Notes under the pieces: model-generated
What the model saw: only the letters and a program-made list of their open reading frames with translations
Told to the model about the DNA's origin: nothing
The model's database searches: none
Made by a program: the position numbers and the translations under genes
Shown: positions 7,541 to 47,924 of the stretch, piece after piece
How the letters are laid out: every line of letters begins with the position of its first letter
How positions within the stretch are numbered: the first letter of the stretch is position 1
Assembly (NCBI GenBank): GCA_948144175.1
Contig: CANXME010000106.1
Coordinates: 4,092,001-4,156,000, forward strand
Length of the DNA stretch: 64,000 bases
From: Closterium sp. NIES-65
Taxonomy: Eukaryota > Streptophyta > Zygnematophyceae > Desmidiales > Closteriaceae
Reading direction: 5' to 3'

Positions 7541-7599
7541 CGCGCCCCGGCCCTACTTACTCGGACTGGTGAGATTCTCCCTGCTAGGCCACTACAGTC

Positions 7600-8106
7600 A
7601 TGGCTACCCCCAGTGTCCTTACCTTTGATGCTGAGGGTCGTGCTGTTGACTTTGAGGTCTGGGTCGATGACTTCGAGCTGTTCCTACAGTGCGATAGGGC
7701 AGACGGACTCTCCCTGTTCGATCTCACCTCTGGTGCCTCTCCTCCCCCGCCTGCTACTGCTGACAGCACTTTTCACTCACAGTGGGCCACACGCGATGCT
7801 GCTGCCCGTCTTGCTGTGCGTCGCCACTTACCGACCACTGAGCGTGCGCACTTTAGCTAGTACAAGAGTGCTAAGACCTTGTACAACGCTGTAGTTGCAC
7901 GCTACTCCTCCCCTGCCACTGCTGCGCTTAGCCGCCTCATGCTGCCGTACCTGTTTCCTGACCTTGCTGCCTTTCCCACAGTCGCTGACCTCATTACGCA
8001 CCTTCGCACTAGTGACACTCCCTACCGCGCTGCGCTTCCTGCTGAGTTCCGTGCCAAGAACCCCACCCCCCCCCCCCCCCCATGTACATCACCCTCTACT
8101 ACATAG
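7600..8106 (+). pseudogene. gag N-terminal part of B
   Basis: It starts at ATG 7600 (MATPSVLTFDAEGR), about 0.9 kb after the primer site, and matches the A gag closely. The frame has a TAG stop at 7858-7860 where A has a glutamine codon, consistent with CAG to TAG. It then continues (TLYNAVVARYSSP, FPTVADLITHLRTS) to a C run at about 8066-8080. After the run this frame soon stops at 8104-8106, while the rest of gag continues in the -1 frame from MYITLYY. The protein would be the capsid part of the virus-like particle. Confidence 0.82.
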
Positions 8107-9575
8107 TCACCCGGCTCCTTGACTCCCTTCTCTTAGTCAGGGACCACTTCCTCTCTGTTTGCCCCACCACACTCACCGTTGACCTCCTCGAGGAGCGCCT
8201 CCTAGCAGCAGAGAAGAGCATAGTCGCTGTAGGAGCCTCTCGTGGTGACCCTCGCACCCCCGTCTTTGAGGGGTGTTCCCCCTCCCCCCTCTTGACCTCT
8301 GTTGGGAGACGCCGCACCGGCAAGGGCAAGGGGAGCAAGGGCAATGGAGGGGCTGGCGGGGGCGGTGGAGGTGGTGGTGGAGGCAGTGGAGGGGGTGGGG
8401 GTGGTGGTGGGAGTGGTGGCGGGGGTGGAGGTGTCGGTGGCGGCAGTGGAGGCGGAGGAGGCGGCGGCGGTGGCGGAGGGAGCGGAGGCGGCGGAGGTGG
8501 CGGAGGCGGCGGAGCTGGCGGAGGCGGCGGCAACAGCGGTGGAGCTGATCGCGGCTCTGCGCAGAGGAGTGGCTCCGGTGGTGGTCCGCGCCAGAAGAAG
8601 CAGCGCACTCGTGAGACCCTGTCCCCTCAGCAGCTTCGTGAGTGGTACGCTGCGCGTCAGCGCGGTGGGGATACTGGTCCCTGCACCTACGTCCTTCGTA
8701 CCGGCGACTGTGCTGGTGAGCAGTGCGGGGGCCTGCACTCCACCCAGCGCTGCTTCGGCCGCCTGACGGACGCGTGGCGTCACCAGTTCCCTGACGCCAC
8801 TGAGATCCCTCGCTGGGGAGAGTTGTCTAGGGCGGGGGTTGCTATCTTTGATCTTGATTATGATGCTATTCTTGCTGCCATGTATGCTGTGTCTACTAGT
8901 GATGAGGATGAGTGTTACCTGTGTGTTCCGCCTGACCCGGGCATTGAGCCTGCTGTTCTAGGTGCTGGTGAGGCTGCTGCTCTAGGTGCTAGTGCGTCTG
9001 CTGCCCCAGGTGCTGGTGAGTCTGCTCTCTCAGGTGCGTCTGCTCAGGCCTTACACACCTTCACCCTTGACTCGGGTGCTTCCCGCTCCTTCTTTCAAGA
9101 CCGCACCACACTTACGCCGCTTAGTCGGCCGGTTGCGGTCTCCCTGGCAGACCCCTCTGGGGGTCCTGTCCTTGCTAGCTTCTCCACTGTCTTACCGTGC
9201 CCGGCAGCCCCCTTTGGCACCCTGTCAGGTCTCTACCTCCCCTCGTTCTCTACAAACTTGGTGAGTGGAGCTGATCTACTGGATAGGGGGGTTGACCAGC
9301 TCACTCGTGCGAGTCAGCGGGTGACCCACTGCACGTGTGCTCGGACGGGCCGACACTTGGCCACGTTTACCCCTCGGCCGGGGTCGAGCTTTTACACACT
9401 GGCTACTGAGTCTCCTCCGGTTGCTGAGTCTGGTCAAGTAGCTGCGTCGAGTCAGGTGTTTGCTGTAGCGTCCAGGTCTGGTCCTGAGTCTGCGCCCTGC
9501 TCGTGTCGTCTCTTTTCCCACCAGACTCTCCTTTGGCACCACCGCCTTGGTCACCCCTCCCTGCCTCGTCTCTGA
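8082..9575 (+). pseudogene. gag C-terminus and protease of B
   Basis: A 497-codon frame. It begins with the end of capsid (VRDHFLSVCPTTLTVD), then a poly-glycine stretch with scattered serine (8340-8540), then a Cys/His motif CTYVLRTGDC..C..H..C at about 8670-8757. The retropepsin site TLDSGASRSFF follows near 9065-9100 with its Asp-Ser-Gly intact. The frame ends in the pre-integrase region (LLWHHRLGHPSLPRL) at a TGA at 9573-9575; D has CGA there, so a C to T change at a CpG explains the stop. The next codons continue in the same frame into integrase. Confidence 0.8.
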
Positions 9576-10838
9576 GGCATGGCCTCCTGTGTCCTTGTCT
9601 CTGGTCTCCCCCGGTCCCTACCTCCCCTACCTCCTGGGCCTGCCCCTACCTGCGTCCCCTGCGTCGAGGGGCGACAGCGCGCCGCCCCTCACTCCTCCGA
9701 GTTTCCTCCGACATAGGCTCCGCTGCAGACTCTTCACATGGACGTGTGGGGCCCCGCCCGCGTCCGTGCCCAAGGTTACGAGCGTTACTTCCAGTTGGTG
9801 GTTGACGACTTCTTGCGTTACACCACGGTGTTCTGCTTGCGCAGCAAGGGTGACGTCACTGAGGTGTTGATCGACTGGATCCGCGCAGCTCGTCTCCAGC
9901 TCAGAGAGAGTTTCGGCTCCGACTTTCCTATTCTGCGTCTGCACTCTGACAGAGGCGGGGAGTTTTCCTCTGCCCCTCTGGGAGCCTTCTGTTGTGCACA
10001 GGGCATCGGCGAGACCTTCACGCTTCCGGCCTCTCCAGAGCAAAATGGGATTGCTGAGCGCCGCATTGGCATGGTCATGGACGTCGCTCGTACGTCCATG
10101 ATCCATGCGGCTGCCCCCCATTTTCTGTGGCCATTTGCGGTTCAATATGCAGCGCATCAGCTCAACCTTCAGCCCCGGGTCTCCTTGCCAGAGACCTCCC
10201 CCACCTTGCGGTGGACGGGGAAGGTTGGCGATGCGTCTGCGTTTCGGGTCTGGGGATCTCGGGCGTTTGTCCGCGACTTGTCTGCGGACAAGCTGTCCCC
10301 CAGTGCTGTTTCCTGCGTCTTCCTTGGCTTCCCCCCTGACGCGCCTGGGTGGCAGTTTTACCACCCCACCTCGCGCCGTGTACTATCCTCCCAGGACGTC
10401 ACCTTTGACGAGTCGGTGCCTTACTACCGCCTCTTCCCCTACCGCACTGCGCCCCTCCCCCCGTCGCTGCTCTTCCTTGCGCCCGGTCCTCCCCTGGTAG
10501 ACCCCCTCCCCCCTCAGGCTCCTGCCCCGTCAGGTGTGTCCCAGGTAGACGCAGTCGAGCCTGTCGAAGTAGCTGTTGACTCTGGTGCTGCTAGAGGTGC
10601 TGAGCCTGCGGGTGCCGGGTCTGGAGGTGCTGAGCCTGGGAGTGCGGAGCCTGGGGGTGCTGAGTCGAAGGTTGCGGAGCCTGGGGGTGCTGAGCCTGGG
10701 GGTGCTAAGTTTGGGGGTGCTGAGCTTGGGGGTGCTAAGTCTGGGGGTGCTGAGCCTGGGGGTGCTGGATGTGCTCTTGTGGCCTCTCGCGGTGCTTCGT
10801 CGAGGCGGGAGCTACTCTCTCTGAAGGAGCTGCGCTAG
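9576..10838 (+). pseudogene. integrase of B plus start of the repeat linker
   Basis: Same frame as the protease. A second stop (TAG near 9714) precedes the open stretch from 9738. The integrase core has all three acidic sites: MDVWGP, LHSDRGGEF and NGIAERR. The copia C-terminal block DASAFRVWGSRAFVRD follows and the domain ends near 10460. From 10580 the protein is a run of GGAEP-type pentapeptides and their variants, closing at a TAG at 10836-10838 where D has GAG. The integrase core itself is uninterrupted in this copy. Confidence 0.82.
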
Positions 10839-16620: not shown

Positions 16621-17088
16621 CTGCTGCAGCTGTCGCTGAGGGGGGTGGGTGTGTGGGAGCCTAGGGTTTAGGGTTTAAGGGGGGTGCTGTGGGAGTGGAG
16701 CTAGGGTTTGAAAAGGGGGTGTGTGAGAGGGGAGTGGGGCAGCTGGGGGAGGTTGTGTGAAGGTAGCTGTCGTGTTGCCTGCAGCGCCTGTAGTCCGTCG
16801 CCCTTGCTTCGTTAGCGTGTGAGCCTGTTGCACCAGTCGCCAGTGGGTACGTTGCTCTTGCCACTCGTCTATAGCCGCGGAGCCAGTCACTCCAGTAGTT
16901 CGTCGCCCTTGCTTTGGTAGCCACTGAGTCAGCCGCTCCTGTGCCCGTGCCTCTGCAGCTTCAGTCGTTGCCTCGCATCTTCTCTCCCTCCACAGTCTCC
17001 CCTCCTCCTTACTTGCCCTCTGTGATACCCTCTAGCTTTGCTTATCATTGTGAACTCTTGCTCTATGCCTGCATGCTGTACTGATTAT
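16621..17088 (+). other. internal non-coding part of T
   Basis: G/T-rich stretch with short TAGGGTTTAGGGTTT telomere-like sequence near 16662, then a C-rich part (GCCGCTCCTGTGCCCGTGC) that is shared in reverse with I at 43960-44250. I see no credible open frame. Confidence 0.6.
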
Positions 17089-17111
17089 ACCCCACTTCGA
17101 CTATGGGGGTG
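17089..17111 (+). promoter_or_regulatory. polypurine tract region of T
   Basis: ACCCCACTTCGACTATGGGG ending GTG directly before the 3' LTR; same form as in B. Confidence 0.7.
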
Positions 17112-17290
17112 TGTCAGAATATAATACTTGTCTAGCCTGCAGTGGGGTACTCTATAGCGAGTACAGCCCCTTAGGGTTTCCTATTTGTATCCACCTGCTT
17201 GCTAGTGCAAACCCCTCCTTTGCTCATTTCTCTCTAGCCTAGCTAGGTAAACCCTAGCTATGGCTCCTCACTGTGCTCACTATTCTCACA
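17112..17290 (+). repeat. 3' LTR of T
   Basis: 179 bp, partner of 15856-16034. It is followed by AATTT and then resumed C integrase sequence (GGACGGGAAAGATTGGCGATG at 17310-17330). Confidence 0.9.
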
Positions 17291-17330
17291 AATTTGCCCA
17301 TACTCCGTTGGACGGGAAAGATTGGCGATG

Positions 17331-18244
17331 TGTCGTATTGCACTATTAAGCTTGGCCTCGAGCAATAGCTGAAGTAGTGCAGCAGCAAGGGTGTACTATA
17401 ATGTACTGTGCTTGCTATTTCGTTTTGGGAGAGAGTTGGTGGGCAGATTTCGAGGGGGTTGGTGTGCCCAAGGCGTGAGGAATTGGGAGAAGAAACCCAA
17501 TGCATGCGGTGCGGAGCTGGATGGCGGTGGGAAAGCTGGATTCGAGTTAACTCGTAGGTAGCCAGCTAGCACCTTGGGAGTGCGCCGAAGAGGTTTCTTC
17601 GCGCACCAAGAGCCAGAAGGCCACACTAGGAAGTAGTTAGGATAGATCTGAAGGGGGTCCAAATGTTTGCTTGCCTTTTGCTTGTTTGTTCCTTTTATAC
17701 TACAATTCTGACTTGAATTCGAAGCTAGCAATGTTAGGAGTTCGAGCAATAGTCTGCGCACAGCACTGGTATTGCGGAACTTGATCCAAACAAGCAAAAA
17801 GGGCTCAGCAGAAGCAACGCTAGTGCTGGAACAAAGTTAGGCCAAGGGCCGCGGGGTATGCACGGATCTGATCCGGAATTGTACATTCGACAGCTGAGGA
17901 ATACTCGACGCGAGTGATGGGAGATCTTGAAGGTGAAGAGGCGTCTCGTCAGAGATTTTGAGCTGGATCTCATGAACCTGTACAAGGTGCGGGCCAAGGG
18001 CTGACGGAGAAGCCAATGGGGCGCACGGAGTCATCCACTTGCCATACCCCAGCGCGAGAGAGCAAAGAAAGATCAGAGCGCGCGCGGATCTGAGAAGGGA
18101 ACGCCTGGAGGAAGGGAGAATGAAGCGAATCTGACGGGCAACCAAGGAGGATGGCGGGAAACTGAGCTGGGGGTTGGAAATCGAGAAGCATGACACCGGC
18201 GATACGAGGGTGAACCTGGAGGATCGCATGGATCTGGAGGGCCT
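17331..18244 (+). other. leader region of F
   Basis: About 0.9 kb of moderate GC content before gag. It may include an LTR (a TTTTATACTACAATTC stretch near 17693 could hold a TATA box), but I find no second copy in the window to prove it. No coding match. Confidence 0.35.
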
Positions 18245-19087
18245 GTGAATAACTGGGGCAGTGGGCGATCGGCGGGGCTGATGGTGCCTAAGATTGAGAT
18301 CCTCGAAAGATTTTCAGGTGTACCAGGAGAGGAACATGCGCTGAAAAATTACCTGATGATGATCGAAGATATCCACTACCCCTGGGATCAAGAACGACTC
18401 GACCCCATCGAGTTCTTCTGTGGATTGTGGAAGACGCTGAGAGGAGAAGCACAGACACACCATCGTGTTGAACGCACGGGTTTGTTGAGGCAGTGCAATG
18501 AAGGCCAGCTGCAGCCACGAGAGGTCACGGGCAAGTTCCTGGAAATTCTGCAGGAGCAGTTTCCAGGGCATTCTGCTGAGCGGCTGGTGGAGTTCCGGGA
18601 CTTGAAGCCCAAGCTATACTCCCTGGGCATTTGAGCAAAGCTCAAGCAGGTGTACATGGTTGCTAAGGAAGTGGAGGAAGGGAGACAATTCTTTGATGCT
18701 ATTTGGAGCACCAGCCGCTACAGCGAGCGGCGGCGACTAGCATGGGGGGCACCAGAAGGAAGGAGGTAGGAGGAGGAAGAGCATTCCATGGGAGAAGATC
18801 AGCGGCGCTGTCACCAGTGTGGGGAAGTGGGCCACATCCGCCGAGATTGTGTGGCAAAGAAGTCGTGCGACATCTGCAGGCAGAAGGGGCACCTGAAGAG
18901 GGATAGCCCAAGGGCGCCTACCTGCGCGGGCTATGGACAAAGAGGGCATACAGAGGAACAATGTTATAGCAGAGGAAGACGAGATAGGAGTAATTCCAGT
19001 AGGGAGCAACAGCTAGAGCAAGAGCTGAAGAAGCTCCGGGCACAGCTGGGTAAGGCAAAATCAGTGAAGACCTCGAGCAAGCAATGA
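18245..19087 (+). pseudogene. gag with zinc knuckles of F
   Basis: One frame from about 18245 to TGA 19085-19087, with stops at 18632 and near 18767. The true start is not clear (18245 is GTG). The capsid-like part reads PKIEILERFSG, ALKNYLMMIED, GKFLEILQEQFPGHSAERLVEF and matches G at 47200-47500. The zinc knuckles are CHQCGEVGHIRRDC and CDICRQKGHLKRD (last Cys lost), then CAGYGQRGHTEEQC, at 18810-18965. A charged coiled-coil-like tail (EQQLEQELKKLRAQLGKAK) ends the frame. The stop overlaps the ATG of the next frame (ATGA at 19084-19087). Confidence 0.78.
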
Positions 19088-19662
19088 TGGCATGGGAGGA
19101 TGATGAGGATGAGTCAGATGAGGAAGAGCCGGAGCGGGCGTATATAGCTATGGTGCCACGGGCACGGGAAGAGCTGGGACTGCGGACTGGCGGGAAGGAC
19201 GGTAGGGCAGAACTGAAGACATATGGACGGAGGACGAAGATTAGAACAGAACCGGAAACGGTAGAAGGAAGGGCGAAGAGGAGGCCGGAGGAGAGGTTGG
19301 TGTGCCAGCCAATAGCAATACAAGTGGAAGGAGGAGCAATCGCGGTGAAGGGCATCAAGGTGAATAACGTGGTGGTGGATACGGGGGCACAGAGTGTGCT
19401 GCTAGGACGCTAGTTAAGTGAGCAGCTACAACACAAGGAGGGAGTGGAGGTCCAAGAGAAGGGAATGCTTATCATGATGGCCAAAGGTGGTGCACCCAAA
19501 TGGATGCCCAGTACGAAGGAGCCGTTGGAGGTAGTGTTGCTGCCGGACAAAGAGCAGGAAACCCGCATAAGAGTGCAGTGTTGCCTTACCGAGTCAGATG
19601 ACTATGACATGCTGCTTGGTATGGAGCTCTTGTTCAAAGTGGGAGCTAATATCTGCACTTGA
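19084..19662 (+). pseudogene. aspartic protease region of F
   Basis: The frame is -1 to gag and starts at the overlapping ATG 19084. An acidic stretch (EDDEDESDEEEPE) leads to the retropepsin motif VVVDTGAQSVLLGR at 19369-19410, with Asp-Thr-Gly intact. The second conserved block is YDMLLGMELLFKVGA (19606-19650), like the ILGMDWL block of Ty3/gypsy proteases. Stops lie at 19411-19413 and 19660-19662. The enzyme would cut the polyprotein. The methyltransferase follows in the same frame after the second stop. Confidence 0.75.
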
Positions 19663-19677
19663 CACGAGCAACTGCTG

Positions 19678-20817
19678 TTGCGCACCGAATTCTGGGAGGA
19701 GGATAGGCTGCTGGGGGAACTGCCAGTAAGATTTGTGAAGACAGAACCGAAGAATGCGTGGAGGGTAGGTACGGAGTTGCCTAAGCCTGGATGGGGGAAG
19801 AAGGGAGGAGAGAACAGAGGGAGTGAGGGAACTGATGGATTAACGGGGCCGAAAGTCTTGAGGGATCAAGGAGTGACCCTGGTGGAGCTTTTCGGGGGGT
19901 TGGGAGCACGACTGGCAGCAGTGCTGGAAGCCGTGATGGAGATAAAAAGACAGATATATGTGGAAATTGATACAGTGGTGAGACGGATGGAGTGGGAGCC
20001 TGCGAGACAGCTGCAGAAAAAGTACCCTGCTCAACTCCAGAGGCGGGTGATAAAGGAAGCAAAGCAGGGAATGACGTGGGACGTCAAGGAGATTACCAAG
20101 GAGATGGTGCGCTCATGGGGAGAGGTAGATCTGCTGGTGGCGAAATGGGAATGTCAAGGCACTTCACGAGCGGGCAAGGGAAGGGGATTACAAGACGAGA
20201 GGACAGCACTGCTGAGCAAGCTGCTGAAAATTATGGCATGGATGAAGAAAGGGGACAGCAAGTATGCCTATGTCGTTGAGCATGTAGACATGGATGGAGA
20301 CATGCGGGAGCCGATCAAGGAGGTGAAAGAGCTGGTGGAAGCCTGCCTGGGGAGGGGCGTGAGCTCGGATGGCGCAAAATTGGGAGCTAGATTCCATCGC
20401 GTGCGCCGCCTCTGGCAAAACGTGATACCTGGAAAGGAGCTGAAGGATAGAGTGGGAAGGGTGGTGCGAGAGCAAGACAGGACAGTGCAAGACATCTTAG
20501 AACCAGGGAGAGTGGCAGCAGAGGTGGTCAAGCGAGACCATCCAAGGCAATACCAATGCAACCGTGTGGGGAAACCGTGATGCGCTTGGCCCACGTTGGT
20601 GGCATACCCGGGAGCGAGGGGATTCAAGGATGAAGAGGGAGAACCAGGTCCAAGAATAGTGTACAACCACAACAAGGCACGGTGGGAGGGACCGATGGCG
20701 ATTGAGAGAGAGCAAGCGATGGGCTATGCTCTGGGGGCAACGGCAGCGGCAGGAGTGACGGAACAAGAGAGGAGGGCAGCAATTGGCCGAGCGATAGATC
20801 TACACTCACTCACCTAG
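19678..20817 (+). pseudogene. C5-cytosine DNA methyltransferase-like domain of F
   Basis: Same frame as the protease, 300 codons to TGA 20578, then on to 20817. The SAM-binding motif I is LVELFGGLG (codons 68-76, counting from 19678). A VEID motif lies at 95-98. Motif IV is WECQGTSRAGKG, with the catalytic cysteine at codon 159 (20152-20154) and Glu in place of the usual Pro of PCQ. Motif VI is YVVEHVD instead of ENV. A C-terminal block (VQDILEPGR, then REQAMGYALGATAA and RAAIGRAIDLHSL) also occurs in G. The arrangement is like the Dnmt3/DRM-type enzymes described in some algal and dinoflagellate retrotransposons. It would methylate cytosines in DNA. One TGA at 20578 breaks this copy. Confidence 0.83.
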
Positions 20818-21159
20818 ATGCAGCAAGGCAGGGAGCAAGAGGGAAAGGAAGAGACACCAGCGTTCGCAGCGACAAGGCCAGCGGCAGAGGAAGAGAAATT
20901 CTAGGAGCTAGGAGCCGACCTGAGCATGGAAGTGGCGGCAAAGATACATGAGCATTGAAGCAGCACAGAAAACTTATGCGTCGCCCTTCTTGTCGAACAA
21001 GATGATATGGATCAGAAGTGAACCGCGCCGCGACTAGAAAAGGGAACGTATCGCCTTCTATGCCAACAACAAAGAAGAGTGGCGACCGCAACGCCTCTAC
21101 TGCAAAGTTTGCAAAAATTGGGCACTTGGCTGAGCGATGCAAATTCCACTCCGCTCCTT
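20818..21159 (+). other. end of F, unassigned
   Basis: After the methyltransferase stop there are short open pieces only. A stretch near 21110 reads FAKIGHLAERC, like a zinc knuckle that has lost its first cysteines. No RT or integrase is seen before the J LTR. Confidence 0.35.
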
Positions 21160-21210: not shown

Positions 21211-21339
21211 TGTGAAAGTTTAGAAGAAAGAAGAGGGCTGCAGTAGCAAGAATGGGGATACAAATAGCAAACCCTAGAAGGGTTGTACTCGCTATAGAGC
21301 ACCCCACTACAGGCTAGAGCATAAGATAACATTCTGACA
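21211..21339 (-). repeat. solo LTR S (T/I family) inside the J LTR
   Basis: 129 bp, TGTGAAAGTTTAG to CATTCTGACA, close to the 130-bp LTRs of I. It is flanked by a perfect 5-bp duplication ACAAG (21206-21210 and 21340-21344). A solo LTR is left when the two LTRs of an inserted element recombine. Confidence 0.9.
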
Positions 21340-21422
21340 ACAAGTACTAACCTAAATTGGGTTGTACCCCATATGGGCTACCCCACTACAGCCTACATAA
21401 TATGCAACATATAAGTTTGACA
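21340..21422 (-). repeat. 3' LTR of J, right piece (with S target duplication)
   Basis: ACAAG copy at 21340-21344, then TACTAACCTAAATTGG to AAGTTTGACA, ending at the polypurine side. Confidence 0.8.
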
Positions 21423-21447
21423 CACCCACATAAGCAAAGTGGGGGAG
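21423..21447 (-). promoter_or_regulatory. polypurine tract region of J
   Basis: CACCCACATAAGCAAAGTGG (plus strand) followed by GGGGA; hairpin form as in A, B and D, with one mismatch. Confidence 0.6.
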
Positions 21448-21659
21448 AACAAGAGGCCACAAGACCAGTCAAGAAAAGCAAAGCAAGCTCAAGGTGGATC
21501 ACGAAGTCACCACATACTGTGCGCACAACCAAATGGCCAAAAGGCCATTTCACATGCAGAGTTATATAATGCAAAACAAGCAGTACACTGATTACAACCT
21601 AGCAAGTGTAAGCATGCAGGCATAAATAGATTACAGTACAAGCAAAGTCAAAAAGTGAG

Positions 21660-23124
21660 CAAGTGAGGCCTTTAGGCACAAGGCTGAAGTGCCTTGGTGA
21701 AGATATCTGCAGTGTTGGCCCGAGAGGCCACATAAGCAAGACGAGGTTGACCACGCTGCTGCAACTCACGAGCAAGGAAGTAACGGAGAGCAATCTGCTT
21801 TGTCCTGTGCTCCAATCTGTGCTCTCGACACAAGGAAATCATGGCCTTGTTTTCTACGTAAAGAACTGGAGGAGAACAAGGCAGCTCTCCCAAGTCGGCC
21901 AGCAGGTAGGTGAGCCAGCGTAACTCTTGTGCAGCCATGGCCCCTGCATAGATCTCAGCCTCACAACTAGAACTGAGAATAGAAGACGAGCGGGTAGACC
22001 GCCAAGAAACAGAGCCGGAGCCAAGGCTGAAAGTGTAACCCAGTGATGACCGCTGCGTAGCCAAGTCGTCAACCCAAGAGGCGTCTGCGTGTCCAGTGAC
22101 GACAACTGGACCCTGTCCTCCAAGCACGAGCCCCATGCCCGACGTACTACACAAGTAGCGCATCACCCTCTTAGCGGCCTTCCAGTGCTCTGCTCGGTGT
22201 CTCCCGAGCGCAACGTAGCGTGCCAGGATGCTAAAAGGGTAGGCAAGGTCAGGTCGAGTGCAGGTCATCAGGTATATGAGGCAGCCCACAAGCTCTGGAT
22301 ACAGGCCACTCGGCTCTACGGACTTGTCCAAAGGTGGAGCTGAGAGCGAATGATTGGTAGGCAGAGGAGTGGGCTCTGGCAAGGAGTACTGGAAGTCGAA
22401 GCGCTGAAGGACCTGCTCCACCATGTGTGACTGAGTCAAGATTATGGTGCGCCGTGCTCTGTCCCGGGTGATCTGCAAGCCCAGATAGCTATGCAGCTCA
22501 CCCAGGTCTATGCACGTGTGTCACTTCTGCAGCTCCGACTTCACATGGGCGAGTCCCTTAGTGTCAGCAGTGGCAAAGACCAAGTCATCGATGTACACGA
22601 GGATGTAGAACGGCGGCAGCGTAGAAACAGCGATGGGTCAGCAGTAGAATGAGCAAACCTAAGAGCCGCAAGTGTCGTCCTCAGTGTGTCGTGCGACTCG
22701 CGAGGCGCTTGGCAGAGACCGTAGACTGGCCGCCAGAGGCTCCACTGGGTACTTGCAGAATACGACCCAGTTAAGCCAGGTGGGCGGCGGAGCCAGATCT
22801 CCTCATGCAAGCTGCCCTGTAAGAAAGCTATGTTGAAGTCAAGAGAGTGAAGCTCGTAGTCACGCTGAGCGGCGACGCGCAGTGTCACCCAAAGAGTGGT
22901 CATCTTCGGGGTAGGGGAGAAGGTCTGGAAGAAGTCAACTATCTGGGTTCAGTTTGTCGCTGACTGAAGCCTCGTGCAGCGTAAGGCGCCTTGAAGACAG
23001 GCGGAGAACCCGGTGGCCGCTTCACCCTGAACATCCACGTGCCATCAACTATGTTTGCCCCAGGAAGGGGAACCTCGTCGACGTAAGTGCATATGGACTT
23101 CCACGATGCCATCTCTGCGTCCAT
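21660..23124 (-). pseudogene. reverse transcriptase and RNase H of J
   Basis: RNase H and the RT end occupy 21672-22478 in one open frame (ADASWVDDLATQ, SSCEAEIYAG, LYVENKAMISLC, DIFTKAL). The upstream RT pieces at 22541-22903 and 22939-23124 are in other frames. Around 22615 a deletion removes the stretch TDTSLPPF seen in B and shifts the frame before the active site. The remaining active-site region reads YIDDLVF in the shifted frame. It matches B throughout but is inactive. Confidence 0.78.
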
Positions 23125-24900
23125 GGCTGTCTGCCACTAAGGGGAGTAGGGACCCGTAATCGCCTCTGCGTAAGAGCACCGGGTCGGGATGTCTGGTGCA
23201 TCCGGGTCTCCCTTAGGTGCAATCAGCAAGGACACGAGATGAGGTACAGTAGCTGCAAAACACTCAAATTCCTCCTGCCTGTCCTCAAGGACGTCCGTGC
23301 CAAGAGCACACTCACCCCCGACGGACGGAGGACAGACAGACTCAGACTCAGCAACAAGACTAGCGGCGTAGTCAAGGTGACAGGCGGTAGCAAATTCAAC
23401 AAGCTCAGCAACTAGGGCAGACGCAGCAGTGGACTCAAACGAAGGGTCAGTAACAATAGTGGCCGGAAGACGTGCGACAATAGGACTCGTAGCATGAAGG
23501 AAGTCAGACTCAGGGTCCGGGCCATCAGCAAGAGAGGACGCAGGAGGAGTCGGCAGGGGGACGCACTGTGGAATGGAGGAAGGACGGAGTGCCATATGGT
23601 GGGTGCTGGGGATAGCAGGAGGGCGCGGACGCGGAACACGACGACCAGTGCGAACAGCGCGAACAGGCAAGGAAGGACGAGACGCAGGCTCACGACGCTT
23701 TATAAGACCTCTAGTCTGCTCAGTGTAAGGAGAAGGAGCAGGCAGAGGGGAGGCTGGGTATAACTGCGGCTGCAAGTGGTCAGGTGGTGGACACAGTAAG
23801 GGAGGAGTAAGGCCAGTAGAATACGGGAGATCAAGAACCTGCTGAAGTAGTGGAACGAAATACGGTCGCGGCCGCACAGCGCCTCCAGAACCAGCACCGA
23901 CAACTTTAGCACCCCCAAAGCCAGCACCCCCAGCTCCAGAGTTTCCAGCTCCAACGCCAGCAGCACCACTAGCAGCTCCAGCTCCAGCTCCTCCAGCTCC
24001 AACGCCTGCAACACCTCTAGCTCCAGCGGCTCCAGTACCTCCAGTTGAGCCCCTTCGGGACCAGTGGCTCCAGCTCCAGGGTCTCCAGCTCCAGCGCCTG
24101 CAATACCACCGGCTCCAACAGTTCCAGTACCTCCAGCACGAGCACCTGAAGTGCATCCAGCTCTAGCCCCCCCAGCTCTAGCAGTGCCACTCTGAAGACT
24201 CCAGCGCTGAGCAAACCACTCGCGCAGCTGCAGTGGAGAGAGAGGCTGACGTCGTAACGAGGCACCCTTAGAACCTCCAGCACCTCTAGAACCTCTAGGA
24301 CAAGCAGCTCCAGTACCTCCGGGGCCAGCAGCTCCAGCACCTCCGGTACCTCAAGCTCCAGCGGCTCTAGCTCCAGGGTCTCCAGCTCCAGCGCCTGCAG
24401 TACCACCGGCTCCAGCAGCTCCAGTACCTGGAGTACGAGCACCTCCGGGACCAGCAGCTCCAGCACCTCCAGGACCAGCAGCTCCAATGCATGCAGCTCT
24501 CGGTCCCCCAGCTCCAGCAGCGCCACTTCAAAGGCTCCAGCGCTGCACAAACCACTCGCGTAGCTGCGGTGGAGAGAGAGACCCCCGCCATGATGAGGCA
24601 CCCGGAGAACCTCTAGCAGACAAAGTACCTCCAGGCTCAGCACGCTTAGGCTCAGCACCCCCAAGCCTAGCACCCCCAAGCTCCGCAAGCTCAGGCTCAG
24701 CATTCCCAGGTTCCGCACCCTCAGACTCAGCAGCCCTAGGCTCAGCACCCCAAGGCTCCGCACACTCAGGCTCAGCACCCCCCGGCTCCGCTCGTTCACG
24801 CGCAGCACCCCCAGTCGCAGCACCTCTAGCAGCACCACCCCCAGCAGCACCGGAGTCGACAGCGACCTCGACAGGCTCGACAAGGTCTACCTGAGACACC
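23125..24900 (-). pseudogene. repeat-rich linker between integrase and RT of J
   Basis: The 23137-24156 frame carries PRPYFVPLLQQVLDL, MALRPSSIPQCVPLP, DFLHATSPIVARL and GECALGTDVLEDRQEEFE, as in B. Towards higher coordinates come CCAGCTCCAG-type tandem repeats (23900-24530) and then GAEP-type pentapeptide repeats (24600-24860) in another frame. Parts of the block LREWFAQRWS occur twice (near 24200 and 24540), so the linker has been duplicated. Confidence 0.7.
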
Positions 24901-25560
24901 GGAGGAGGACGTGGTGTGAGGAAGAGCGGCGGGGGGGGGGGGGGGGAGAGGGGCAGTGCGGTAGGGGAAGAGACTGTAAAAGGGAACCGACTCGTCAAAC
25001 GTGACGTCCTGAGAAGGTAGGAGATGGCGTGAGGTGGGGTGGTAAAGCTGCCAGCCAGGCCGGTCAGGGGGAAAGCCAAGGAAGATGCAGGGAATGGCGC
25101 GGGAGGAGAGCTTGTCCGAGAAAGTATCACGGACAAAGGCACGAGAGCCCCAGACCCGGAACATTGACGCATATCTAACCTTCCCCGTCCAACGCAGTGT
25201 AGGCGAGGTCTCTGGCAAGGAGACACGGGGCCAGAGGTTGAGCTGATACGCAGCGTACCGGACCGCAAATGGCCATAGAAAATGGGGGGCAGCTGCATGG
25301 ATCATAGAGGTACGAGCGACCTCCATGACTAAGCCAATGCGGCGCTCAGCAACCCCATTTTGCTGCCGAGAGGGCGGAAGCGTGAACGACTGGAGAATGC
25401 CCTCCCCACAACAGAAGTCCCGTAAGAGGTCGGAGGAAAACTCACCACCTCTGTCAGAGTGCAGACGCAGGACTAGAAGGTCGTATGGAACCGCTCGCGG
25501 AGCTGAAACGGACAGCGCGGATCCAAGGGATCAAAACATCAGGAACCATACGCAGACGCA
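24901..25560 (-). pseudogene. integrase remnant of J
   Basis: The C-terminal integrase part is open at 24826-25326 (HFLWPFAVRYAAYQLNL, FRVWGSRAFVRD, SQDVTFDESVPF). LHSDRGGEF-type sequence and NGVAERR lie at 25340-25480 in other frames. At about 25555 the sequence jumps to protease-distal sequence, so pre-integrase and the first catalytic aspartate are deleted. A run of G at 24930-24945 lies in the proline codons after the domain. Confidence 0.72.
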
Positions 25561-35500: not shown

Positions 35501-36428
35501 TGGGCAGCAGTGTCATGAGTGCATGTGTGATTGTGTGCATGAGAGTTTGCTTGTGTGTGAGTGTGTGTGCATGCAGTCCGTTAGTCTGAGGAGGAGTTGG
35601 TTGAATGCACGTCATTCTGAGTGCATGTCATTCTAACGTCCTGCTGAGTGCTCGTGCTATTCATGCGTGCAATGTTTGCATGAGCATATGTCATTGTGCA
35701 TGGCTGTTGGATATTTTCATCTCTGTGTTTTTCTCCAAGTTTAAATGCTTGATCATGCAGGAGAAATCTAGAGCTTTCCAACAATACCAAGATCGCCTTA
35801 TTCCGACCAAGATCGCCCAAGTTACAAGATTTCCAAGACTCAGATGTCTTATTACTTATTGGGGTTATATCTAATTTGGGTGATTACTTGGACATGACTA
35901 TAAAGAGATCTTTGGTTGGGTGGTTAGGAAGGCAACTTTGACTTTTGGATTGGGGTGGTTAGAAGTTTCTAGCATGGGTTGCAAATGTTGCAACACCTAG
36001 GCAAAGTCCAACTATATTGGATTTTGTATGTGACATCTCAAGGACCTCATGGTGAGGGTTGCATCCTTGCTACTAGGAAGGTTCTTACTATCCTTCCCTA
36101 GCTCCTCGAGAACCCCTTCCTTCTCATGGTTCTCTTGGAGGTCCCCAACCCCAACATCCTATCCTTTAATGTTTGTACTTCCTCCACCACTCTAGTCATG
36201 CGGCTGCTGGACGTTTTTACTTGGTTCTCACTCCCTAGACCATCTTGCTAAGTGATTCAAATTGGAGATGGTAGCCTAATGCGCACAATCCAGCTGAGCG
36301 GATTTGCGTTTTGTTGAGAAATGAGTTCGTCGTAAGTTCTCAAAGTGACGAATCCTAAACAATATTAGCATCCCTCTTCTCCACTCTTGTGGGACCCCCT
36401 TACGTCTCACCTCCCATGCCTCCTCCTC
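35501..36428 (+). other. 3' end and probable 3' LTR of E
   Basis: TG-rich stretch to 35580, CTGAGGAGGAGT as polypurine-like tract, then TGGTTGAATGCACG at 35598 in the place where K has its LTR start TGTTGGTGC. The rest to about 36428 is AT-richer with no coding match, as expected of an LTR. I find no second copy to fix its right end. Confidence 0.45.
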
Positions 36429-37315
36429 CTAATGTTTAAGCAGAATCTCCGTCTCCTCCTCCTTTTTCTCATCTGCCCTGGTCCAGGGGTTTGCCTTGGC
36501 TTTGTGGTCCCTTCTCCTCTCTAGTCGATTCTTCTCTAGGTACCTGTGCATGGTATCCACCAGCCAATGCAGAGCATTCAAGTCCATCGCCTTGCCCAAT
36601 GCTCTCCTGCGCTGCCGCTCCATCACCTCTCCACTCACCATTGCTCCTTCCATGAAGCCCATGGCCAACTCTCCCAAGAGCCATAGGTTTCTCCCATACT
36701 CCTTTTAGTCGGTCGAACACCATCCTTAGGCCTTCAATGCCTTCTTCCATCTTAAACCCCCTTGCTTGATCATATGCCACCAGATTGGGCCATGCTTGCC
36801 TTGGTTCCCCCACCTTGTTGCACAGGTACTGAGTCTCATGGTCAGGGTGCCTCACAGGCGCAAACAGCCTCACTGGTTCCAATATGTCTTGTACCAATCG
36901 TGGGCGAGGTCTCTCCATCATTGACAGCTTGAACTACAACGTTGCCTTTGGCAACACTTTCTGCCAGTACCTGGGTGTGCGGTGTGTACTGCTGCCATTC
37001 TGTACGGCATTCCATGCCACTCCTACCTCCATCTCCCCCCGGATCTCTTCCTCTGCACGTTTCTCTGCCTCCCTGGTATCGTTCCTGTTGTCTACATTCT
37101 CTAGTATATATGCTACCTCCCCCTACTTGCGCTCGATCAACTTCAGGATGCGAATGAGCTCTCGGAATAGCCTGCTCCGAGGATCTTCCATCCGCTTACC
37201 CTCCCCTACCCGTGACATCCCTTGGCATTCCCACCCCGCGACAACCAATTCAATGTGTCCTTAGTGGGCCAGTGCATCTTCTTTCACGTCCTCCGCCCTG
37301 TGGCAGGTCCACACT
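36429..37315 (-). pseudogene. cytosine methyltransferase fragment of retroelement G
   Basis: Minus strand. Motif IV is VVAGWECQGMSRVGEG with the catalytic Cys codon at 37225-37227, and motif VI is YILENVD, closer to the usual ENV than in F. After a stop at about 37120 and a frame change come RYWQKVLP, MERPRPRLVQDILEP, QYLCNKVGEPRQAWPNLVAYD, then in another frame MGELAMGFMEGAM and RRRALGKAMDLNALHWLV, ending at 36429. All match F in order. Motif I is missing: beyond about 37320 the sequence passes to the H insertion, and beyond that to gag, so the N-terminal half was deleted before H arrived. Confidence 0.82.
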
Positions 37316-37351
37316 GTCCCCTTATCCACTGCGCCTTTTTTCAATTGGGAT

Positions 37352-37484
37352 GGGCAAATTGCCCCATGACCTAGCAAGCAGTGTGTGCACTAGGAAAACG
37401 ACTAAGAAACAGAGAACACAAAGATCGCACGAGCATCCGTGCCTAGCCCGTAGTCTAGTTCCCGTTGTAGTAGTTTTCTCCGCA
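37352..37484 (+). repeat. 5' LTR of H
   Basis: GGGCAAATTGCCCC to TCTCCGCA. It matches 43653-43740 plus 46894-46939, and a variant at about 45480-45616. A further related LTR is inverted at 63470. Confidence 0.75.
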
Positions 37485-46939: not shown

Positions 46940-47924
46940 CCACTCGACTGCTCGCTCCCCTCTACGCTCCACCTCAAACAGCCTCCTCCCTGTCTTCTCT
47001 CGTTTCGCTGCCTCATAAGCTTCCTTTAGCGTCGCGTTCGCACCCAGGTCAAAGATTTTCACCTGCACATCGCGCTGTAGCTCATAGTTCATTCCATTTA
47101 GAATTTGCTTATAAGGCGGCCTTGATCGAAGCAGCTTATGCCTTCCTTTAGCTCGATGAGGCGCCCATAATATGCCAAAGAGATTTCCCCGCTCTCCTAT
47201 TGAATTCTCGAAACTCTACGACACGCTCTGGGGTTTGCAAGGAGTATTGCTCCCTTATAATATCTAGGAACCGCGCCGTCGGATCTCTTTCTCCCGGCCT
47301 CCCTCTCACCGCCCACTCCAGAAGGTCCGTGCGGTAGATGCAGTAGTAGGTTTCAGCTTCCCCCATCAGGGTATTCGCCAGCCAGCGGATGAGCTCGTTG
47401 GTGGCAAGGCGATCTCTCTCCCATCTTGCCCTCAGATTCTCCAAGTGCATCAGGTAATTCTTCAGCAAGGGTCCTCGACGTGTTTCGCCAGAGAACCGCT
47501 CCGGTACCTCCACCTTTGGCAGCATTGTGTAACACCATCGCAGCAACGTTGCTTCTTCTTTCAAGCCCTGCCAGGACGCGCTCGGCTGATAGCCTTGCTC
47601 TGCCCGCTTTCCTGCTCCGTCGGCCACTCCTCCTTCTTCCGACGTGGGCCGAGCCACACTGTCCTTCTTTACTCCCTTCTCCGATTCTAGCACCTGCTCG
47701 CGCTTCTTATCTGAGCCTGTGGCTCCCTCCCGATTCTCTTTTCCCGGTCCATACGCACCTTGCACGTTCGTATTCGTCCCTTGAATTTTGCCGCTTTTTC
47801 CGTCCCCATCCATCACTTCTTTTTCCACCAACGCGACTTTTGCCGCGTAGTCAACTCCACATCTCGTGGGCATTCTCTCTGCAATAGATTGCTTGTATGT
47901 GATGAGCTCTCTGCTCCTACACAT
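46940..47924 (-). pseudogene. gag of retroelement G
   Basis: Starts at ATG 47924 (MCRSRELITYKQS) and is open to 47148 (258 codons); a frame change near 47150-47090 leads to MNYELQRDVQVKIFDLG and EKTGRRLFEVERRGERAVEW up to the H insertion. Capsid-like blocks PKVEVPERFSG, LLKNYLMHLENL, FLDIIREQYSLQTPERVVEF match F. The charged N-terminal part (about 100 residues) has no match in F. No zinc knuckle or protease follows: past H the sequence goes to methyltransferase motif IV, so those parts are deleted. Confidence 0.78.

Follow-up and report, generated by a model that had tools for sequence, protein, structure and literature searches.

Retrotransposons that carry their own cytosine methyltransferases have been described in a dinoflagellate and in a charophyte alga. 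In the latter, Klebsormidium nitens, the Gypsy element KnitGypsy-Dnmt3 bears an unrearranged Dnmt3 inside its Pol frame together with DIRS-like repeats, and its methyltransferase (Ka/Ks <0.2) is stated to have conserved key residues (de Mendoza et al. 2018, PMC5890265). The SymbioDIRS-Dnmt3 enzymes of the dinoflagellate Symbiodinium were reported to methylate CG, and methylation of complementary DNA (cDNA), shielding and host effects are discussed in the accessible text of that paper (PMC5890265). An opinion article of 2019 (PMC6338049) proposed antiviral roles and states that Ty3/Gypsy and DIRS elements encoding DAM and DCM were found in green algae and charophytes, among others, and a DNMT study of 2025 (PMC12344493) cites retrotransposon DNMT3 as earlier reported. 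Here we describe a family of Ty3/Gypsy-type elements with a predicted DNMT3-type C5-cytosine methyltransferase in Closterium sp. NIES-65, including a dead copy in a stretch of 64,000 nucleotides (contig CANXME010000106.1, positions 4,092,001 to 4,156,000), hereafter the window. A preliminary description, made from the letters of the window alone, had proposed that a retroelement encodes its own C5-methyltransferase here, and had suggested that the enzyme might methylate the element's own cDNA or host DNA, to avoid or use silencing; the dinoflagellate and charophyte precedents that it mentioned are real.

The composition of the family is evident from its open-frame members. A search of the 874-Mb assembly (2400 contigs) with the methyltransferase frame gave 129 scored matches among 1370 candidates; 25 of the 129 lie in open frames of 2071–2084 amino acids (aa) and 8 more in frames of 2162–2375 aa, of which two carry a stop within the matched part. 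In three open-frame polyproteins, L009 (2084 aa), L012 (2281 aa) and L025 (2375 aa), the domains are ordered as follows: zinc knuckles, aspartic protease, methyltransferase, reverse transcriptase (RT), RNaseH, integrase zinc domain (H2C2) and rve core. The methyltransferase thus sits between protease and RT within a single gag-pol polyprotein, and protease, RT, RNaseH and integrase (H2C2 and rve) follow gag in the order of Ty3/Gypsy elements. The identity of the family as Ty3/Gypsy-type with a DNMT3-type methyltransferase is practically certain. These whole frames bear out the claim that a retroelement encodes its own C5-methyltransferase, and they provide the intact copies for which a genome search had been proposed; the proposed order gag-protease-methyltransferase is right as far as it goes but incomplete, the open-frame copies continuing into RT, RNaseH and integrase. 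Neither outcome named beforehand as fatal to the claim, a lack of any match to C5-methyltransferases or other copies devoid of gag and protease, was encountered.

The family is abundant. The exact AGWECQ codon pattern of its motif IV occurs 705 times in the genome (339 + 366), with no occurrence of the reversed control, and AGWPCQ, with Pro for Glu, was found once, as often as its own reversed control; the window copy (KWECQ) is not part of the 705. No sister elements without a methyltransferase were established among the best 147 RT matches (of 11,725 candidates), 21 of which were checked for the motif. AGWECQ is present in 18 of these 21 (contigs C1–C417) and missing from C244, C387:157156 and C222, all of them shorter or broken frames; such a pattern check overlooks copies with a mutated motif, as for the window copy. 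A genome search with PF00145 scored 123 of 901 candidates, and the 10 of them that were read were all AGWECQG element frames, with no host DNMT among those 10.

The window copy is a pseudogene, and undamaged copies of the element are present elsewhere in the same genome. It extends over 17332–20981 on the plus strand, is shortened at its 3' end and, when aligned to its relatives, proves to be gapped, to change frame and to contain in-frame stops. Its 5' terminal repeat A1 (17332–17787, approximately 455 nucleotides, starting with TGTCG) is 87–91% identical to repeat A of copy L018; it was delimited from BLASTn matches at 17340–17392 and 17388–17777 (17388–18607 against L018), the precise start and the 3' limit near 17787 being judged by eye against L018. 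A gag region with CCHC zinc knuckles (18248–19060; knuckle frame 18770–19087) matches residues 178–497 of the open-frame polyprotein P0004 (tBLASTn, 51%) and PF00098 (E 1.3e-6), contains stops and differs in frame from the downstream part. The aspartic protease region (VVDTGAQSVLLG; 19320–19660, limits approximate, one stop inside) lies within a tBLASTn match to residues 497–1103 of P0004; its DTGAQS stretch reaches a Pfam E of 0.19 only, and open-frame relatives match PF13650/PF13975 at the equivalent position. The methyltransferase (19830–20817) shows motif I LVELFGGLG, motif IV WECQG, motif VI EHV, motif VIII HRVR and a C-terminal GRAID block. The frame 19663–20580 encodes LVELFGGLG, WECQGTSRAGKG and YVVEHVD, with the catalytic Cys codon TGT at 20152–20154; a TGA at 20578–20580 interrupts it, and the same frame resumes with REQAMGYALG and RAAIGRAIDL, up to 20817. 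The start of a linker towards RT (20818–20981) marks the point of truncation, where matches to L018 stop at 20952 (tBLASTn) and 20981 (BLASTn). The RT, RNaseH and integrase of the family have no match in the window, and tBLASTn with three whole polyproteins gave no RT or integrase piece there. All the motifs listed in the preliminary description were found in their places, and its succession of gag, zinc knuckles, protease and methyltransferase stands, with the correction that this copy is dead.

The enzyme is best classified, by profile and fold, as a DNMT3-type C5-cytosine methyltransferase. Taken alone, the window frame scores below the curated Pfam DNA_methylase cut-off (18.5 bits against 22, E 0.0014) and matches DNMT3B/3A in PDB at E 0.0016 and up; with relatives included the match goes far beyond chance, a profile built from 18 sequences matching DNMT3A at 5.9e-21, with DNMT2-type transfer RNA (tRNA) methyltransferases far lower (E 0.009–0.026). 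Fold comparison likewise gave best PDB matches at 1e-17, DNMT3A/3B bound to DNA being the closest, and a best match of 5e-16 in a viral library. DNMT3 is therefore the best match among the C5-methyltransferase classes by both approaches, with unrearranged motif order. The PF00145 hallmarks (motif I FxGG, motif IV Cys, motif VI Glu and motif VIII RxR) are present, the motifs being ordered I to X, and F38, G39, G40, C125, E167, R207 and R209 are invariant across the 18-sequence alignment. In a larger set of 43 aligned domains, the catalytic Cys and the motif VI Glu are retained in all and HRxR in 41 (the exceptions are one gap and one ARVR). Motif VI reads EHV in 14, ENT in 14, EHL, ENV and ENA in 4 each, ENL in 2 and ENS in 1, and EHV for ENV is thus a subfamily trait. 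A Pro immediately before the catalytic Cys is usual in C5-methyltransferases, being typical but not defining; its replacement by Glu is common to the whole family and therefore does not reflect decay of the window copy. Both departures from the canonical motifs had been noticed correctly.

The termini of the elements depart from the Ty3/Gypsy scheme. Instead of an identical whole long terminal repeat at both ends, there is A at the 5' end and B-A-B at the 3' end. The complete arrangement A1-coding-B1-A2-B2 was recognized in 8 copies (L011, L013, L014, L015, L016, L018, L021 and L025), its 3' part was seen in L017, and two B repeats together with the methyltransferase occur in L040 and L041, two further copies with RT at 68% identity. 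A starts with TGTC, B ends with GACA and the B1/A2 junction is CGACA-GC-TGTC. Exact 4-bp target duplications bracket 10 of the 12 copies with both ends read: L011 (ATCA), L013 (CCAT, in a short repeat, where a flank match is easier), L014 (ACTC), L015 (TGCC), L016 (CCAC), L018 (CCGA), L021 (ACTC), L023 (TGTG), L025 (GCAT) and L026 (AGAC). The flanks are inexact in L019 (GGAT/GGAC) and L012 (CTGC/GGTC). The chance of such a match is approximately 0.005 per copy, as calculated from the window composition; L010, which ends in A2 without B2, and the one-end copies L009, L017, L020 and L027 were left out of this count. Four copies (L012, L019, L023 and L026, the last two with exact duplications) consist of A-coding-B only and may have arisen by deletion through recombination between B1 and B2. 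Within single copies, A1 and A2 are identical at 508/508, 364/364, 426/428, 202/203 and 481/494 positions, and some insertions are therefore recent. Tandem repeats of approximately 155, 62 and 80 bp contain or adjoin several copies (L010 at 1–83 and 7549–8350, L021 at 1–410 and 7889–8160, L011 at 9046–9901); this could point to a target preference or simply reflect a repeat-rich genome.

The window contains further remnants of the same family, both on the minus strand: a second, more divergent methyltransferase (36345–37353; tBLASTn 31–49% in two pieces, AGWECQ intact at 37222–37239) and a gag remnant (46970–47630; tBLASTn 30–55%, short pieces). They are perhaps parts of one element, split by insertions of approximately 10 kb. 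Copia-type sequences, recognized by eye from open reading frames, flank the methyltransferase element at 17080–17310 and 21265–25530 (minus strand at 21672–25530); they may account for nesting, and the break at 20981 is not clearly explained by them.

Relatives of the element were found by protein searches in five Closterium strains (NIES-53, NIES-54, NIES-65, NIES-67 and Naga37s-1); the first of these searches gave three proteins, all of Closterium (NIES-67, NIES-53 and NIES-54). A search with the P0004 methyltransferase region, in which scoring was confined to the 7990 candidates with the most words in common, matched 36 proteins: 12 of Closterium, 3 of Haematococcus lacustris (located on contigs of 10–16 Mb), 1 of Chlamydomonas eustigma and 20 metagenomic or without species label. 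The chlorophyte-type polyproteins (P0035, P0040 and P0041 of H. lacustris, P0039 of C. eustigma and metagenome proteins among P0017–P0037), known here from proteins alone, share the WEC(Q/V) methyltransferase family (29–40% identity over the aligned part) and Gypsy RT, RNaseH and integrase, but their methyltransferase follows RNaseH and, in those with an integrase match, precedes the integrase, whereas that of Closterium lies between protease and RT. A PHD finger is present near the C-terminus of P0017, P0035 and P0039 and absent from P0026 (which ends early) and P0034. Residues 1560–1753 of P0034 gave a weak match to D12 N6-adenine methyltransferases (PF02086, E 0.027, below the cut-off) and no notable PDB match; the extra C-terminal stretch of P0034 and P0035 is possibly a second, degenerate methyltransferase.

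In midpoint-rooted IQ-TREE phylogenies without an outgroup (40 methyltransferase and 28 RT domains), the chlorophyte/metagenome set is separated from the rest with support of 100 in both trees, several inner nodes being weak. This shared split of Closterium from the chlorophyte set suggests that both genes have long resided in their elements, and the differing position within pol implies that the methyltransferase moved or was captured twice. An apparently multi-copy family of metagenome proteins (P0062–P0067 and P0071), 34–37% identical to the element enzyme, has PCQ in six members and SCQ in P0067 as motif IV, and EMV or KMV as motif VI; P0062 and P0065 fall on the Closterium side of the tree, where the node separating Closterium from them has a support of 61 only. 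A viral origin was considered and rejected: 62 pattern stretches in IMG/VR led to one locus, with a prokaryotic-type SPCQ enzyme (25% identity), and the viral-library fold matches are weaker than those in PDB. From 69 pattern stretches in prokaryote genomes, two loci remained, both in metagenome-assembled genomes of Chitinophagaceae with GSPCT enzymes at 24%. Neither the viral nor the prokaryote pattern scan thus revealed a non-eukaryotic donor with WECQ, which is no proof of absence. It is conceivable, albeit doubtful, that the enzymes form a DNMT3-derived lineage confined to retrotransposons, with a fixed Pro-to-Glu change, resident in Gypsy elements of chlorophytes and streptophytes, relocated within pol and associated in Closterium with split repeats and a DDE integrase. 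Should the Glu affect catalysis or substrate, such an enzyme would be a methyltransferase tuned for retroelement cDNA.

What the enzyme does may be judged from its place in pol, its conserved catalytic residues and the selection acting on it, which together are the grounds for proposing methylation of the element's own cDNA as its likeliest role. Either cleaved from the pol polyprotein or still part of it, the methyltransferase would work inside the particle or the pre-integration complex, where it would methylate cytosines of newly made cDNA by the covalent Cys mechanism, with the motif IV Cys, motif VI Glu and motif VIII Arg as catalytic residues. Each new copy would thus bear the mark on arrival, and this could protect it from being sensed or damaged as foreign DNA, determine its chromatin state or guard against deamination. 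Ratios of nonsynonymous to synonymous substitution rates (dN/dS, Nei-Gojobori) of the methyltransferase are 0.050 (L009-L021), 0.046 (L025-L016), 0.059 (L012-L025) and 0.136 (L027-L022), and 0.21–0.22 for L018-L020, L018-L019 and L012-L015, three young pairs in which changes are few. The methyltransferase is under strong purifying selection, though RT is slightly more constrained. We regard catalytic activity as a C5-methyltransferase as probable in the family copies, and the complete account, a dead copy of a family whose enzyme methylates element cDNA, as somewhat favoured; that cDNA is the main substrate is plausible, with rather less confidence.

Several observations weigh against this proposal. 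The residue before the catalytic Cys is Glu in 43 of the 43 aligned domains and the canonical Pro in none, and the effect that this may have on activity has to be counted. The K. nitens enzyme showed no activity in yeast, a result from which its authors draw no conclusion because human DNMT3B was inactive there too (PMC5890265). Ratios in RT (0.038, 0.030 and 0.032 for L009-L021, L025-L016 and L012-L025, respectively) are slightly below those of the methyltransferase in each pair. The most distant methyltransferase pairs gave 0.079 (L018-L009), 0.141 (L009-L012) and 0.211 (L018-L012), and none for L009-L027 (dS saturated); dS is saturated or nearly so in these most distant pairs (1.8–3.0) and lies at 1.6–3.0 in the deep pairs as a whole, whose ratios are therefore rough. 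Young pairs contain few changes, single ratios of other domains exceeding 1 on a handful of them. Finally, the observed/expected CpG ratio is 0.63–0.74 in five element copies and 0.67 in the window copy, compared with 0.61 and 0.67 in two Copia-like stretches and a window mean of 0.73. There is thus no element-specific CpG depletion, and self-methylation is not supported by CpG content.

The missing depletion and the family-wide Glu would suit an enzyme that modifies RNA or an RNA:DNA hybrid (genomic RNA or primer tRNA) and not double-stranded cDNA, the Pro-to-Glu change reflecting the altered substrate, and RNA methylation was suggested for SymbioLINE-Dnmt by the authors of PMC5890265. We consider this unlikely, however, as the closest relatives in sequence and fold are the DNA enzymes DNMT3A/3B bound to DNA, and the DNMT2-type tRNA enzymes score far lower. 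The lost Pro could also mean that the domain is catalytically dead and retained as a DNA- or RNA-binding module; this is less likely still, given the universal Cys and motif VI Glu, the nearly universal HRxR, the invariant motif I FGG in the 18-sequence alignment and dN/dS of approximately 0.05 in three pairs. Comparably improbable is that the enzyme works in trans, with host DNA or the site of insertion as its target, and silences neighbours, competitors or surplus copies of its own element: hundreds of copies would supply ample enzyme if expressed, and host effects were discussed for Symbiodinium (PMC5890265), but the methyltransferase lies inside the polyprotein between protease and RT, a position that speaks for a function within the particle, and a nuclear form is not indicated by the analysis. 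A host DNMT gene, or chance similarity beside an unrelated gag and protease, might have been suspected from the sub-threshold single-sequence Pfam match; it is refuted, its probability being negligible, by the same order in open-frame polyproteins, the relatives in five Closterium strains and the target duplications bracketing whole elements.

Hosts commonly silence retroelements by DNA methylation, and the Closterium element itself brings along an enzyme of the type that sets this silencing mark, and selection maintains it. A single charophyte precedent might have been an oddity; with hundreds of zygnematophyte copies and chlorophyte relatives, this now has the look of a long-lived strategy among green algae. 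With recent open-frame copies and with Closterium strains in culture, its role is open to direct test, the Glu-for-Pro motif poses a sharp enzymological question, and the split repeats with 4-bp duplications raise that of how the element replicates, including how B2 is regenerated. The kind of element was already known, since KnitGypsy-Dnmt3 has been published. In the accessible text of PMC5890265 neither Closterium nor Zygnema occurs, and the main text of the Closterium NIES-65 genome paper (PMC10407611), in its accessible part, does not contain the word 'retrotransposon'. The available passages of PMC6338049 describe no chlorophyte cytosine-methyltransferase Gypsy element, but its statement on green algae means that part of the chlorophyte finding may already have been noted. 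As far as our searches reach, approximately 700 motif-intact Closterium copies, the family-wide WEC motif, chlorophyte relatives whose methyltransferase follows RNaseH, and exact 4-bp duplications flanking Gypsy elements with split repeats were not found in print (in literature without most subscription papers).

Among characterized enzymes, vertebrate DNMT3A and DNMT3B share their catalytic fold and motif set with the Closterium methyltransferase, but read SPCN where it reads WECQ. Plant DRM2 is alike in fold and motif set, but has a rearranged motif order and matches only in part. Among elements, DIRS retrotransposons have the split direct repeats A-coding-B-A-B in common with the Closterium element, but use a tyrosine recombinase and are not known to make a target duplication; in three Closterium polyproteins no recombinase domain was listed at E up to 1, the rve integrase being present instead. 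The 4-bp duplications and A-coding-B-A-B repeats hence indicate that DDE-type integration coexists with DIRS-type split repeats. KnitGypsy-Dnmt3, compared by description only (text and Fig. 4 legend of PMC5890265), comes from a different class of streptophyte algae, and no protein named K. nitens was among the matches of our protein searches; it shares with the Closterium element the Dnmt3-type methyltransferase in a Gypsy Pol frame and the DIRS-like repeats. SymbioDIRS-Dnmt3 likewise combines Dnmt3 in a retrotransposon polyprotein with split A-coding-B-A-B repeats (PMC5890265), but it possesses a tyrosine recombinase and a DIRS pol, whereas the Closterium element has a DDE integrase and a Gypsy pol.
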